From contig JAJTGQ010000005.1 of the NCBI GenBank assembly GCA_021299455.1, forward strand, positions 1 to 54,875: a DNA stretch of 54,875 bases. Reading direction: 5' to 3'. Every line of letters begins with the position of its first letter. The first letter of the stretch is position 1. Below are positions 30,451-34,248 of this stretch, one piece after another. Under the pieces are notes generated by a model that ran no database searches, was not told the DNA's origin, and saw nothing but the letters and a program-made list of their open reading frames with translations. The DNA comes from Flammeovirgaceae bacterium. GTDB taxonomy: Bacteria > Bacteroidota > Bacteroidia > Cytophagales > Cyclobacteriaceae. Position numbers and translations under genes: made by a program.

Positions 30451-30843
30451 ATGGAACTATTGGAATCACAAGACCCGGAAAAAATACGATTGATTGAAAC
30501 ATCCGATCGGCACAAGAAAGCGCTTGAAAAGGAAATGAAATCAATGTCGGATAAAACAGAAAGGGTGGTAAAAAACGCCTTGATTATTGGAGGCGTTCTG
30601 GCTGCCACTTATTTTGTGGTAAGCCAACTTTCCTCCTCAAAAAAAAAGAAAAACAGAGCCAAAGCGAAAGCTTTATTGACTAATCCGACTGATGAAATAG
30701 AAGAGGAAGACGAAACACCAAGCGTGTTCTCTCAAATCAGTGCCAAGGTAGCTGACACGGCTACTATTGTTCTGATCGACCTGGCAAAAGACGCCTTGGC
30801 CGAGTTCTTAAAAAACAGAAAACAACAAAATGGCGATACTTAA
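30451..30843 (+). CDS. Small single-helix membrane protein of unknown function
   Basis: The 130-residue protein has a charged N-terminal part (SDRHKKALEKEMKSMSDKTE), one hydrophobic helix (about 37-57, ALIIGGVLAATYFVVSQL), a strongly basic stretch (SSSKKKKNRAKAK), an acidic stretch (DEIEEEDET), and a C-terminal helix ending in KNRKQQNGDT. I do not recognise a family. ATG 30451 is chosen because an earlier TTG in frame (30406) lies inside the preceding gene. It overlaps the GGGP synthase gene by 14 bases. With the holin-like protein it probably forms a small membrane pair. Confidence 0.75.
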   Translation: MELLESQDPEKIRLIETSDRHKKALEKEMKSMSDKTERVVKNALIIGGVLAATYFVVSQLSSSKKKKNRAKAKALLTNPTDEIEEEDETPSVFSQISAKVADTATIVLIDLAKDALAEFLKNRKQQNGDT

Positions 30844-31594
30844 AAGTTTAGAGCAAAGCCGTGCTCTTGGAAAAAAATCAATTGCCGTTTTGGTCGATCC
30901 GGATAAGGTAGATAGTCCATCCGAGCTAGATCCACTTATTCGGTTGGCCAATGAAAATTGTGTCGACTTCTTTTTTGTGGGGGGGAGTCTAGTGACTACG
31001 ACTAACCTCAATGAGGTAATCAAACACATAAAAGAGAATGTATCTATTCCGGTGATCCTGTTTCCGGGAAGCTCTCTGCAAATCGATCCATCAGCGGATG
31101 CCATTCTTTTTTTGTCTCTGATTTCAGGGCGTAACCCTGATCTTCTTATTGGACAACATGTTATTGCCGCGCCCATATTAAGAAATAATAAAATTGAGGT
31201 AATGCCTACCGGCTATCTACTCGTCAATTCTGGCAAGACCACCTCAGTAGCCTACATCAGCAACACCACTCCTATTCCCGAAGACAAATACTCATTAGCC
31301 GCTTGCACCGCACTAGCCGGAGAAATGCTTGGCCTTCGTTTGATCTACTTGGATGCGGGCAGTGGTGCAGAACGAGAAATCAATGCGAAAATGATTGGTT
31401 CGGTTCGCAAAGCTGTAAATGTTCCCTTGATTGTTGGCGGAGGCATCAATACGAGTCGAAAGGCCATTATAGCACTGGAAGCAGGTGCCGATTTGATTGT
31501 GATTGGCAACGCACTCGAAAAAGATCCCAATCTGCTGACTGAAATCTCAGACAAAATCTACGACTGGAACCAAGGTGTCAAGTCGGCAGGCTGA
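30830..31594 (+). CDS. Geranylgeranylglyceryl phosphate synthase family protein (group II bacterial GGGPS)
   Basis: A 254-residue TIM-barrel prenyltransferase: IAVLVDPDKVDSPSELD at the first strand (magnesium/polar head site), FFFVGGSLVTTTN, VILFPGSSLQIDPSADAILFLSLISGRNP, GYLLVNSGKTTSVAYISNTTPIP, YLDAGSGA, and the phosphate-binding end PLIVGGGINTSRKA with DLIVIGNALEK. It joins a long-chain prenyl diphosphate to glycerol-1-phosphate. Archaea use the reaction for ether lipids; in Bacteroidota such enzymes have been shown to be active, but their physiological product is less clear. No G1P dehydrogenase or DGGGP synthase gene is in view. It overlaps the preceding small membrane gene by 14 bases. 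Confidence 0.92.
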   Translation: MAILKSLEQSRALGKKSIAVLVDPDKVDSPSELDPLIRLANENCVDFFFVGGSLVTTTNLNEVIKHIKENVSIPVILFPGSSLQIDPSADAILFLSLISGRNPDLLIGQHVIAAPILRNNKIEVMPTGYLLVNSGKTTSVAYISNTTPIPEDKYSLAACTALAGEMLGLRLIYLDAGSGAEREINAKMIGSVRKAVNVPLIVGGGINTSRKAIIALEAGADLIVIGNALEKDPNLLTEISDKIYDWNQGVKSAG

Positions 31595-31686: not shown

Positions 31687-32538
31687 ATGGAAAAAAAGAT
31701 AGTTCGGGTAGGAAATATAGAATGTGGAAATGATGAGCTTTTCCTCATCTCAGGTCCTTGTGTGATTGAAGAGGAAAAGATTATGATGGAAACAGCAGAG
31801 AAATTGATGGTTATCTCTGAGCGCTTAAAAATCAAAATCATCTATAAATCCTCTTTTCAAAAAGATAACCGCAGTAGCCTGAAATATTATACCGGTCCCG
31901 GTTTATCCAAAGGAGTTGCCCTCCTCGCAAAAATTAAGGAACAATTTGGCTTTCCGTTGCTCACCGATATACACTACCCGGACCAAGCAGCGGCAGCAGG
32001 GGAAGTAATTGATGTATTGCAAATTCCAGCCTACTTGTGCATGCAAACGGACCTAATGGTAGCAGCAGCAAAAACCAAACGCGTCATTAATATCAAACAT
32101 GGCCAGTTTTTGGCACCTGATAACATGAAGCACCCGGTTGGCAAATGTGTGGATAGTGGAAACGATCAAATCATTTTAACGGAGAGGGGATTCACCTTCG
32201 GTTACAATGATTTAATTGTTGACCCTCGAAGTTTCTATCACATGAATAAAATTGGTTATCCGGTGGTCTTTGACGTCACTCATGCCATCCGAAAATACGG
32301 CATACCAAGCGCTGATGCAAAAGGAGGAGCCCGCGAATTTTTACCGGTGCTTTCACGAGCGGGTATAGCCGCAGGCGTTGACGGTGTTTTCATTGAAGCA
32401 CACCCTGATCCTGACAAAGCTTTGTGCGATGCTGCTAGCCAATTAAATATTAATCAACTAGAAGAATTCTTAAAACCACTTATCGAATTACACAATGTGG
32501 AAGTGAAATTCCGCGAAAAGTCTCTCATCACTCACTAA
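31687..32538 (+). CDS. kdsA: 3-deoxy-8-phosphooctulonate (Kdo-8-P) synthase, metal-dependent type
   Basis: Condenses phosphoenolpyruvate with arabinose-5-phosphate to Kdo-8-phosphate, the first committed step of lipopolysaccharide Kdo synthesis. The 283-residue TIM barrel shows LFLISGPCVIEEE (about 16-28), YKSSFQKDNRSS, LLTDIHYPDQ, QIPAYLCMQTDL, KHGQFLAPDNMKHPVGKC, and the C-terminal VDGVFIEAHPDPDKALCDAA with the catalytic His/Asp region. The Cys in GPCVIE sits where the metal-binding Cys of Aquifex-type enzymes lies (Asn in the E. coli metal-independent enzyme), so this is predicted to be metal-dependent. It is followed after 12 bases by the transaldolase-CBS fusion and then by a KdsC-like phosphatase. 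Confidence 0.96.
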   Translation: MEKKIVRVGNIECGNDELFLISGPCVIEEEKIMMETAEKLMVISERLKIKIIYKSSFQKDNRSSLKYYTGPGLSKGVALLAKIKEQFGFPLLTDIHYPDQAAAAGEVIDVLQIPAYLCMQTDLMVAAAKTKRVINIKHGQFLAPDNMKHPVGKCVDSGNDQIILTERGFTFGYNDLIVDPRSFYHMNKIGYPVVFDVTHAIRKYGIPSADAKGGAREFLPVLSRAGIAAGVDGVFIEAHPDPDKALCDAASQLNINQLEEFLKPLIELHNVEVKFREKSLITH

Positions 32539-32550
32539 AAAAATCAAAAC

Positions 32551-33558
32551 ATGGAATTGTATTTAGACTCAGCAGACCTGAAGGAAATTGAAGAAGCCTT
32601 TCAACTTGGCTTTCTAAACGGCCTCACCACTACTCCTACTTTTATGCACCGCGGTGGTGTAACAGACGTAGATGGATTAATCGTAAAATTATCTAAGATC
32701 GTGCCCGTTCTCCAGATCGAAGCGTTGGGAAACACCGCTGAGGAAGTACTGGCTGAGGCAAAAAGACAACTCAATCTTGGTCTTGATCCTAAGAAAACCG
32801 TTTTTAAAATTCCTGTTTCATTAGAAGGTGTTAAAGCATGTAACATGCTCCGTAAAGACGGGCTATTAGTCAATGTACACTTGGTGTATACGCTGCAGCA
32901 AGCCTACATGGCTATGCACGCGGGTGCTACTTATGTTTGTCCGCTTGTTGGTCGCTTACAAGACCAAGGTCATGACGCATTGGATTTAGTTGCTCAGTGT
33001 GTGAACGCAGTTGATCATTACGGGTATGATACGAAAATTATGTTCTCTTCTGTACGCTATGCAGAACATGTTCGCAACGCAATCAATATTGGCGTGCACA
33101 CAATTACCGCCCCGTGGAAGGTAATGAAAGCCCTTACGGACAACAATCTAACCGCGCTCGGCACCCAACAGTTTGTGGAGCATACAAAGTTGATGACCGT
33201 TCGCGTGAAGGATGTCTTAAACAGTAAAAATCCGATTGTTTCTTCTGACACATCTGTAACAGACGCATTGGTGAAAATGACAGAATACGGCTTTGGAAGC
33301 ATAACCGTTACTAAAGATAACAAAGTTGTAGGTGTTTTCACCGATGGCGATTTGAGAAGAAAATTGCAAGAAAATGGCCGTGATATATTGACCAAGAAGA
33401 TCGGTGAGTTTCAATACAAGGAGCCTGTTTCTATTGATGCTGACGCACTTTTAAATGAAGCGGCTGATCTTTTCAAGAAGACAAAAGTAGACACCATTTT
33501 GGTAACAGATGGAGGCAAGCCAGTCGGCATGCTTGACATTCAAGATTTGAAAGATTAA
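32551..33558 (+). CDS. Transaldolase (fructose-6-phosphate aldolase-like) fused to a KdsD-type CBS pair
   Basis: The 335-residue protein has two parts. Residues 1-215 form a TalC/FSA-type class I aldolase barrel (MELYLDSADLKEI start; Schiff-base Lys86 in VFKIPVSLEG; PLVGRLQDQG; ITAPWKVM). Compared with E. coli FSA the N-P motif Asn28 is Thr (TTTPT) and the Gln59 position looks like Glu57, as in transaldolases, so substrate or chemistry may differ. Residues about 225-335 are two CBS domains (ALVKMTEYGFGSITVT, VVGVFTDGDLRRKLQ, PVGMLDIQDLK), strikingly like the CBS pair of arabinose-5-phosphate isomerase KdsD, including the FTDGDLRR box. It sits between kdsA and a KdsC-like gene. A role in supplying or regulating arabinose-5-phosphate is inferred from this position. 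Confidence 0.93.
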   Translation: MELYLDSADLKEIEEAFQLGFLNGLTTTPTFMHRGGVTDVDGLIVKLSKIVPVLQIEALGNTAEEVLAEAKRQLNLGLDPKKTVFKIPVSLEGVKACNMLRKDGLLVNVHLVYTLQQAYMAMHAGATYVCPLVGRLQDQGHDALDLVAQCVNAVDHYGYDTKIMFSSVRYAEHVRNAINIGVHTITAPWKVMKALTDNNLTALGTQQFVEHTKLMTVRVKDVLNSKNPIVSSDTSVTDALVKMTEYGFGSITVTKDNKVVGVFTDGDLRRKLQENGRDILTKKIGEFQYKEPVSIDADALLNEAADLFKKTKVDTILVTDGGKPVGMLDIQDLKD

Positions 33559-33567
33559 TTTTTATAG

Positions 33568-34248
33568 TTGGAAGCGGCCGGTATACAATCTTTGTTCGCG
33601 GAAATTGGCGGAAGGTTTTGTATACCGGCCGTTGACATTCAGCGCAAGCTGGAAAACATCAAGGCTTTTGTTTTTGACTGGGATGGCGTATTTAATGATG
33701 GAAGTAAACGTGACCAAACAGGCAGTGGTTTTTCTGAACCTGATGCAATGGGAACCAACATGCTGCGCTTTGGTTACTGGCTTAAGCACAAATCATTACC
33801 AACCACTGCAATCATTACTGGCGAAGAAAACGAATCGGCCTTATTCTTAGGGAAGAGAGAAAGGTTTTCATCCCTTTACTTTAAGGCTTCAAATAAGTTG
33901 AAGTCGTTTGAGCACTTTCTGGCCACCCATCATTTAAAAAGTAACGAGGTGGCCTTTTTTTTCGATGACGTACTGGATATATCTCTGGCCAGTCAATGTG
34001 GTCTTCGGCTTAATTCCTATCGACCATCTAATCCTCTATTCAACCATCATCTCACATCCAAACAGCTGGTTGACTATTCTACCTCAGGCCAATCTTACGC
34101 AGTGAGGGAAGGCTGTGAATTACTCATAGGCCTTCAAGGCAACTATACTGACGCCATTACAAACAGGCAACACTTTTCCGAGACATACCAAAGCTATCTA
34201 GCCGAGAGACAAAAGGTTGACACACAAGTTTACACTGGAATAAGTTAG
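33568..34248 (+). CDS. KdsC-like HAD-superfamily phosphatase
   Basis: The 226-residue HAD protein probably removes phosphate from Kdo-8-phosphate. HAD motif I is AFVFDWDGVFNDGSK (nucleophile Asp near residue 37), motif II is in AIITGEENES, motif III Lys is near YFKASNKLKS, and motif IV is FFDDVLDISLA, in place of the usual GDDxxD in KdsC. An N-terminal stretch (IQSLFAEIGGRFCIPAVDIQ) and a C-terminal extension of about 60 residues are longer than in E. coli KdsC (188 residues). The start is TTG 33568, nine bases after the stop of the fusion gene; TTG 33592 is an alternative. No ATG precedes the HAD core. A 14-bp perfect inverted repeat lies over this start region. The stop overlaps the convergent LytTR gene by 3 bases. 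Confidence 0.8.
   Translation: MEAAGIQSLFAEIGGRFCIPAVDIQRKLENIKAFVFDWDGVFNDGSKRDQTGSGFSEPDAMGTNMLRFGYWLKHKSLPTTAIITGEENESALFLGKRERFSSLYFKASNKLKSFEHFLATHHLKSNEVAFFFDDVLDISLASQCGLRLNSYRPSNPLFNHHLTSKQLVDYSTSGQSYAVREGCELLIGLQGNYTDAITNRQHFSETYQSYLAERQKVDTQVYTGIS
33575..33631 (+). repeat. Perfect 14-bp inverted repeat over the start of the KdsC-like gene
   Basis: CGGCCGGTATACAA (33575-33588) is exactly complementary to TTGTATACCGGCCG (33618-33631), separated by 29 bases. The arms are GC-rich at their ends and lie 7 bases into the coding sequence. In mRNA they would fold into a strong hairpin just behind the TTG start, which could limit initiation or mark a transcript end after the transaldolase-CBS gene. 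Confidence 0.75.

Follow-up and report, generated by a model that had tools for sequence, protein, structure and literature searches.

A fusion protein encoded in the window (the whole stretch of 54,875 nucleotides analysed here), which joins a barrel of the transaldolase/fructose-6-phosphate aldolase (TAL_FSA) family to a KdsD-type pair of CBS domains, probably stands in for KdsD as a non-homologous source of arabinose-5-phosphate (A5P), by whatever chemistry; this role is proposed from comparative sequence evidence. The first-pass annotation had suggested that A5P comes from the aldolase in place of the SIS isomerase, and the genomic evidence strongly supports this idea: the near-exclusion of fusion and kdsD, the linkage of the fusion gene to kdsA and the loss of the Schiff-base lysine in relatives from one family (f53) all argue for such a replacement. 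Kdo is usually essential in the outer membrane; A5P supply is the first committed step towards this sugar and normally runs through the SIS isomerase KdsD/KpsF/GutQ. The fusion ORF is not a product of chance, as relatives occur in 86 of 396 genomes of its class. The relevant features are:

30830-31594: PcrB-family (prenylglyceryl phosphate synthase-like) gene, just upstream of kdsA
31687-32538, + strand: kdsA of the divergent "KdsA2" lineage (Kdo-8-phosphate synthase); TIGR01362, 336 bits against a cut-off of 314
32551-33558, + strand: TAL_FSA-CBS fusion, putative A5P-forming enzyme; uninterrupted ORF of 335 aa
32551-33198, + strand: aldolase barrel, approximately residues 1-216, placed by Pfam TAL_FSA (3-220), residues and the AlphaFold2 model
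32806-32808, + strand: Lys86 codon of the fusion
33196-33555, + strand: KdsD-type CBS pair, approximately residues 216-335 (first CBS 219-273, FTDGDLRR), placed by Pfam, TIGR00393 and PDB matches
33568-34248, + strand: KdsC-like HAD phosphatase; NF007019 (KdsC) 48 bits against a cut-off of 208, PDB KdsC 2r8e at E 1e-8

The genes for KdsA, the fusion and the phosphatase lie on the same strand, separated by 12 and 9 nt respectively, and of the Kdo-type genes these three alone stand together in the window. The position of the fusion between kdsA and a KdsC-like phosphatase gene, as annotated earlier, is borne out, with KdsA passing the TIGR01362 cut-off and the HAD protein resembling KdsC at a score far below the KdsC cut-off. 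The HAD phosphatase is listed from a TTG at 33568, its true start may lie further in, and the NF007019 score was taken from 33589; a Pfam search at E 0.001 gave no match for 33568-34248. The protein is a putative divergent Kdo8P phosphatase.

Domain architecture and structural model of the fusion

Pfam, NCBIfam and PDB matches agree in assigning an FSA/TalC-like barrel and two CBS domains to the one ORF, the architecture given in the first-pass annotation. Pfam TAL_FSA covers residues 3-220 with 118 bits, two CBS stretches at the C-terminus score 72 bits and the Pfam search found no SIS domain in the fusion. The NCBIfam model TIGR00875 (fsa_talC_mipB) scores 156 bits, below its cut-off of 246, while TIGR00393 (KpsF/KdsD) aligns over positions 153-267 only, which is the CBS half, with 73 bits against a cut-off of 203.7. 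In the PDB, the barrel matches the TalC-type transaldolases 3r8r and 1vpx, and the C-terminus matches the CBS pieces of the arabinose-5-phosphate isomerases 4o9k, 3fna and 3k2v. The FTDGDLRR box typical of arabinose-5-phosphate isomerases is present in the CBS part as described.

The AlphaFold2 model of the fusion, computed from an alignment of 57 rows that included 20 TalC rows and 11 KdsD CBS pieces, has a mean pLDDT of 93.2 and a pTM of 0.75. Its top Foldseek matches are again the TalC transaldolases 3r8r and 1vpx (TM by target length 0.91-0.94, rmsd 1.3-2.0); the TM of ~0.93 against 3r8r belongs to a model whose alignment contained TalC rows. The fusion resembles KdsD/KpsF/GutQ in having at its C-terminus a matching type of CBS pair that includes FTDGDLRR, in its probable place in the pathway and in that the two are nearly exclusive in genomes. 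It differs from them in the lack of a SIS domain, the catalytic domain being a non-homologous class I aldolase barrel. In a rough CBS tree with just two, very distant, outgroups, the CBS pair of the fusion falls beside, and not inside, 12 KdsD pairs. Among 85 fusion rows, mean pairwise identity is 85.6% in the barrel versus 66.3% in the CBS pair.

Remodelled active site of the barrel

The active site was compared between 85 fusion rows and 24 ordinary TalC proteins of the phylum. Asp6, Thr26, Thr27, Glu57, Lys86, Asn108, Arg135, Ser167 and Arg169 are common to both sets and, with the barrel fold, make up the likeness to the TalC/FSA family (TIGR00875; 3r8r, 1vpx, 1l6w). In contrast, Asn28 to Thr, Thr110 to His, Phe132 to Leu, Ser130 to Cys and Ala166 to Ser are switched in 85/85 fusion rows relative to TalC; N28T, T110H, F132L and S130C, together with a score below the family cut-off, the added CBS pair and the location in Kdo operons, set the fusion apart from that family. 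The barrel residues listed for the window fusion are Asp6, Thr28, Glu57, Lys86, Asn108, His110, Cys130, Leu132, Arg135, Ser167 and Arg169. With 41 further fusion rows from outside family f53 (126 rows in total, 120 of them distinct), the four substitutions N28T, T110H, F132L and S130C are fixed in 126/126, the Asn of the NP motif and the active-site Thr and Phe of the TalC family being replaced throughout by Thr28, His110 and Leu132. Fourteen of the 15 listed positions are invariant in all 126 rows; the exception, position 137, has Gln (123 rows) or His (3 rows). The Schiff-base residue Lys86 is retained in every one of the 126 rows as well as in 24/24 TalC proteins.

Three residues had been singled out in the first-pass annotation. 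Lys86 and Thr28 in place of the NP-motif Asn are both seen in the fusion. A Glu at the position of Gln59 is likewise present (Glu57), but it is the normal residue of TalC, found in 24/24 of the proteins compared, and was rejected as a special feature of the fusion; of the pair Thr28/Glu57, therefore, Thr28 alone is unusual. T110H, F132L and S130C had escaped notice at that stage. Mutant names place FSA Tyr131 and T. acidophilum Phe132 at Leu132 of the fusion, so that FSA Ala129, to judge from the same names, should match Cys130. A title in the reference list of PMC6298115 claims improved dihydroxyacetone affinity for the FSA Ala129Ser variant, and by analogy the loss of the TalC Ser in the fusion (Ser130 to Cys) may point to a smaller donor of the glycolaldehyde type.

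Distant relatives of the fusion (38-44% identity) that keep the CBS pair were found in four genomes of family f53 (G383, G453, G409 and G432; loci L198-L201). In these proteins Lys86 is changed to Arg or Ser and Arg135 is lost, and KdsA was absent at E 1e-40 from 4/4 of the genomes. Each adjoins a gene of ~570-620 aa. The f53 relatives look catalytically dead and are perhaps regulatory proteins made from an old enzyme.

Distribution of the fusion and of kdsD

All counts of distribution given here depend on profile cut-offs. In the window's own genome (96.5% complete, 176 contigs), a profile search for a canonical kdsD (SIS plus CBS) found no kpsF/kdsD over cut-off. Its three kpsF matches are the CBS pair of the fusion, IMP dehydrogenase and a CBS-only protein, and its four SIS matches are GlmS (two; ORF of 611 aa from ATG), GmhA and N-acetylmuramic acid 6-phosphate etherase. 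One further TAL_FSA gene, on another contig, is an ordinary talC (TIGR00875 281 bits, above cut-off).

The class was sampled with 396 genomes, at least 95% completeness being requested, in which the fusion was counted at E ≤1e-60 and kdsD at kpsF E ≤1e-30. The fusion was found in 86 of them, about a fifth, and kdsD in 241, with both in 3 and neither in 72 (Fisher p ~1e-37 for exclusion, in a test that ignores ancestry). The 86 fusion genomes comprise 81 with near-full-length relatives (57-100% identity), 1 with a partial relative and 4 with distant relatives (38-44%). The three genomes with both genes are G432, a member of f53 with a weak kpsF match (E 1e-44), G519, where KdsA2, fusion and kdsD occur together, and G574, which has KdsA2 beside the fusion plus a canonical KdsA (43% identity) and kdsD. 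Once the four f53 genomes are set aside, kdsD occurs in 2 of 82 fusion genomes. Of the 72 genomes with neither gene, 70 were asked for KdsA, which was absent at E 1e-40 from 67; the other three hold a KdsA2-like fragment of ~150 residues (G357), a match of 44% identity (G526) and a KdsA2 of 71% identity (G680). In G041, a further genome with neither gene, the search for KdsA gave nothing stronger than E 1e-33. In each of the families f1, f3, f5, f55, f60, f79 and f91, some genera have the fusion alone and others kdsD alone, a pattern that suggests gain or loss on more than one occasion.

A phylum-wide sample of 296 genomes held the full-length fusion in five, all with kdsA, and the best kpsF matches in these five (E 4e-20 to 9e-16) are at the level of the fusion CBS pair. 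Within this sample, kdsA occurs in 72/73 genomes of the window's class (counted by eye), and 65 of the 67 kdsA-bearing class genomes without the fusion have kdsD at E ≤2e-82, the other 2 having weaker matches (~1e-45). In the wider phylum, G023, G200, G268 and G284 carry KdsA without the fusion and without kdsD over cut-off, so that other A5P sources or search misses exist.

A second collection of 50 fusion genomes, reached through the best 80 of 185 relatives' loci and searched as whole genomes, shares at least one genome (G298 = G146) with the class sample. Here kdsD over cut-off was found in 1/50, the remaining 49 being without it. A full-length kdsA over cut-off is present in 48, while one genome (G335) has the gene divided between two contigs and in one (G343) it was not found. 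The one exception, G303, has a module kdnA-kdnB-kdsA2-fusion-HAD plus a canonical kdsA and kdsD elsewhere. In G343, a 2.2-Mb assembly, the fusion (L081) has an intact active site, and the missing KdsA is perhaps due to the small assembly. Fusion genomes with a record title are mostly metagenome assemblies. Taken with the near-exclusion in the class sample, the retention of kdsA in the second collection bears out the link between fusion and kdsA foreseen in the first-pass annotation. Against the pattern named there as counter-evidence, a canonical kdsD together with fusions spread independently of kdsA, stand the lack of a kpsF/kdsD match over cut-off in the window's own genome and the presence of kdsA in most of the fusion genomes tested.

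Operons around fusion relatives

The operon survey covered 98 fusion loci, some of which represent the same genome reached twice. Upstream, kdsA lies on the same strand in 66 of the 89 loci with at least 2 kb of flank, and kdnB and kdnA were found in 35 and 33, respectively, of the 80 loci with at least 4.5 kb. Downstream, a HAD gene is present in 68/86 loci (at least 1.5 kb of flank) and kdsB in 28/82 (at least 2.6 kb). None of the six genes sought was found in 12 of the 98 loci. In the operon of G091, KdnB matches 5k8c with 409 bits, KdnA matches 5k8b with 435 bits and KdsB scores 213 bits on TIGR00466 (cut-off 155). The longest common operon thus covers the route from A5P to CMP-Kdo together with the two enzymes of 8-amino-Kdo formation, the fusion standing where the A5P step would be.

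The divergent KdsA2 lineage

In a KdsA tree of 55 rows, the fusion-linked KdsA proteins (KdsA2) form a group of 37 with support 100/100, on a long branch apart from other Bacteroidota KdsA. The KdsA2 gene stands at 31687-32538 of the window and also at L149, L152, L167 and L168. Residues switched in KdsA2 are A60D, S67Y, R119M, K138H, Q202R, P204Y and S247C; A60D, R119M, K138H, Q202R and others occur in 62/62 KdsA2 rows, some from the same genome, as compared with 18 canonical KdsA. Distances of fusion and KdsA2 over 55 loci are correlated (Mantel r 0.77, 0/2000 permutations as high), for which shared ancestry alone could suffice.

Thirty-six members of the KdsA2 group come from fusion genomes and one comes from G249, a kdsD genome of the window's order. 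In G249 (one contig, 7.0 Mb) the operon reads kdnA, kdnB, kdsA2, HAD and kdsB, with no fusion between kdsA2 and HAD; HAD and kdnB were assigned by profile, whereas kdnA and kdsB were recognised by eye. Elsewhere the genome has a full kdsD (kpsF 320 bits). The KdsA2 of G249 carries the same switched residues as other KdsA2. In G606, a second genome of this genus, a KdsA2 (79% identity) is encoded between kdnB and HAD; the fusion is missing here too, and kdsD is present. In G190, from the same family as these two genomes, fusion and KdsA2 are on different contigs, each alone. No other observation speaks as strongly for A5P as the product of the fusion as this change of partner: the KdsA2 lineage occurs with kdsD in one genus and elsewhere with the fusion.

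Proposed mechanism and alternative explanations

The reading that we prefer, tentatively, is that the fusion is a natural Schiff-base ribose-5-phosphate (R5P) 2-epimerase, which would convert R5P to A5P on Lys86 and feed the A5P to the KdsA encoded directly upstream. We know of no natural enzyme that epimerises R5P to A5P. A precedent is the class II L-ribulose-5-phosphate 4-epimerase, which is related to aldolases and epimerises its pentose phosphate through retro-aldol cleavage followed by aldol addition; unlike the fusion, it is a metal enzyme of another fold. The barrel would descend from TalC/FSA transaldolases, with Lys86 most likely forming a Schiff base with the C1 aldehyde of the sugar or of a two-carbon unit. 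The remodelled pocket of Thr28, His110, Cys130 and Leu132 would favour a glycolaldehyde-type over a dihydroxyacetone-type unit, and the retained Arg135, Ser167 and Arg169, which we take to be the phosphate-holding residues, would hold the phosphate. Along one path (a), R5P would undergo retro-aldol cleavage to a Lys86-bound glycolaldehyde enamine and glyceraldehyde-3-phosphate, followed by aldol addition to A5P; along the other (b), R5P would give a C2 enaminol on Lys86 and then A5P. The probable role of the KdsD-type CBS pair is to respond to a signal from the pathway or from a nucleotide, through which feedback may act. CMP-Kdo, proposed earlier as CBS ligand, was dropped from the evidence, the literature search having found no paper on 3K2V, which we assume may hold a CMP-Kdo-like ligand.

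Passages of PMC9947464 and PMC6298115 describe the formation of A5P by FsaA in vitro from glycolaldehyde and glyceraldehyde-3-phosphate, and a passage of PMC9947464 states that the TalB F178Y variant yields R5P as a by-product, so that the scaffold can apparently make both C2 epimers. A strict aldolase, forming A5P from free glycolaldehyde and glyceraldehyde-3-phosphate with no action on R5P, is a close and only somewhat less likely alternative: the FsaA reaction and the exchange of TalC Ser130 for Cys, read through the Ala129Ser title, speak for it, but it needs a glycolaldehyde pool, and no glycolaldehyde-forming gene was recognised by eye among the neighbouring genes inspected. R5P is abundant in cells, and free glycolaldehyde is not, to our knowledge, an abundant metabolite, which favours R5P over glycolaldehyde as the starting compound; both are favoured over an acid-base isomerase. 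Such an enzyme would interconvert ribulose-5-phosphate and A5P through His110 and Glu57, without a Schiff base on Lys86. This would equal the KdsD reaction with its usual substrate, and His110 is new and fixed in 126/126 rows; nevertheless we judge it unlikely, since Lys86 is kept in all rows outside f53, and the four f53 relatives in which it is replaced by Arg or Ser come from genomes with no KdsA at the threshold used. Less probable still is a transaldolase-like reaction, in which A5P would be released from octulose-8-phosphate and dihydroxyacetone passed to glyceraldehyde-3-phosphate. It would account for the retention of Glu57 and of Arg135, Ser167 and Arg169 from TalC, and octulose is described in a passage of PMC5854111 as occurring in organisms, possibly through an alternative pentose phosphate route; yet Asn28, Thr110 and Phe132 of TalC are all replaced and a source of octulose-8-phosphate would be required.

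Two further readings concern what the fusion is for. KdsA2 might use an aldose phosphate other than A5P, made by the fusion, as its remodelling (switched positions including R119M and K138H) and the distance of the HAD protein from KdsC would allow. This reading is lowered to an improbable one by the swap genomes G249 and G606, in which KdsA2 of this lineage is accompanied by a normal kdsD instead of the fusion, the same residues being switched in G249, and by the KdsB, KdnA and KdnB genes in the operons. Fold and family would also fit a standard transaldolase or FSA that has gained a regulatory domain and is functionally unconnected to kdsA, but this is very unlikely in view of the separate talC in the window's own genome, the remodelled and fixed active site, the near-exclusion with kdsD and the conserved operon. 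The version in which such an ordinary transaldolase stands beside kdsA by chance was rejected on the first three of these grounds.

Relation to known pathways

Among the papers listed in searches of the open-access PMC literature, which covers few subscription papers, none describes a TAL_FSA-CBS fusion in its title or the opening lines of its abstract. If the replacement of KdsD is real, a missing Kdo step would be filled in many Bacteroidota by a widespread non-homologous enzyme, the fusions would make up a further enzyme family, one in which a transaldolase scaffold carries out an altered reaction, and the naming of such proteins as "transaldolase" or "fructose-6-phosphate aldolase" would call for caution. 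It would also suggest that KdsD inhibitors would not act on fusion-bearing bacteria. Were R5P epimerisation the reaction, a second, independently evolved route into Kdo would exist in about a fifth of the sampled class genomes.

The operons resemble the Kdo8N pathway in that relatives of the KdnB oxidase (5k8c), of the KdnA transaminase (5k8b), both of which we take to be Shewanella proteins, and of KdsB flank many fusion relatives, and they differ from it in adding an A5P-forming candidate and a divergent KdsA. The occurrence of KdnA and KdnB in the operons of many Bacteroidota relatives suggests that 8-amino-Kdo may be part of their lipopolysaccharide. Among the relatives, the genes for KdnA and KdnB lie at 9109-11425 of L149, 5500-7780 of L152 and 6906-9246 of L169. 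In seven fusion loci a phosphoglycerate kinase gene replaces kdsA, the identity of the kinase having been checked by profile in L059 alone; L043, L050, L057, L059 and L062 are among the relatives with this gene before the fusion.
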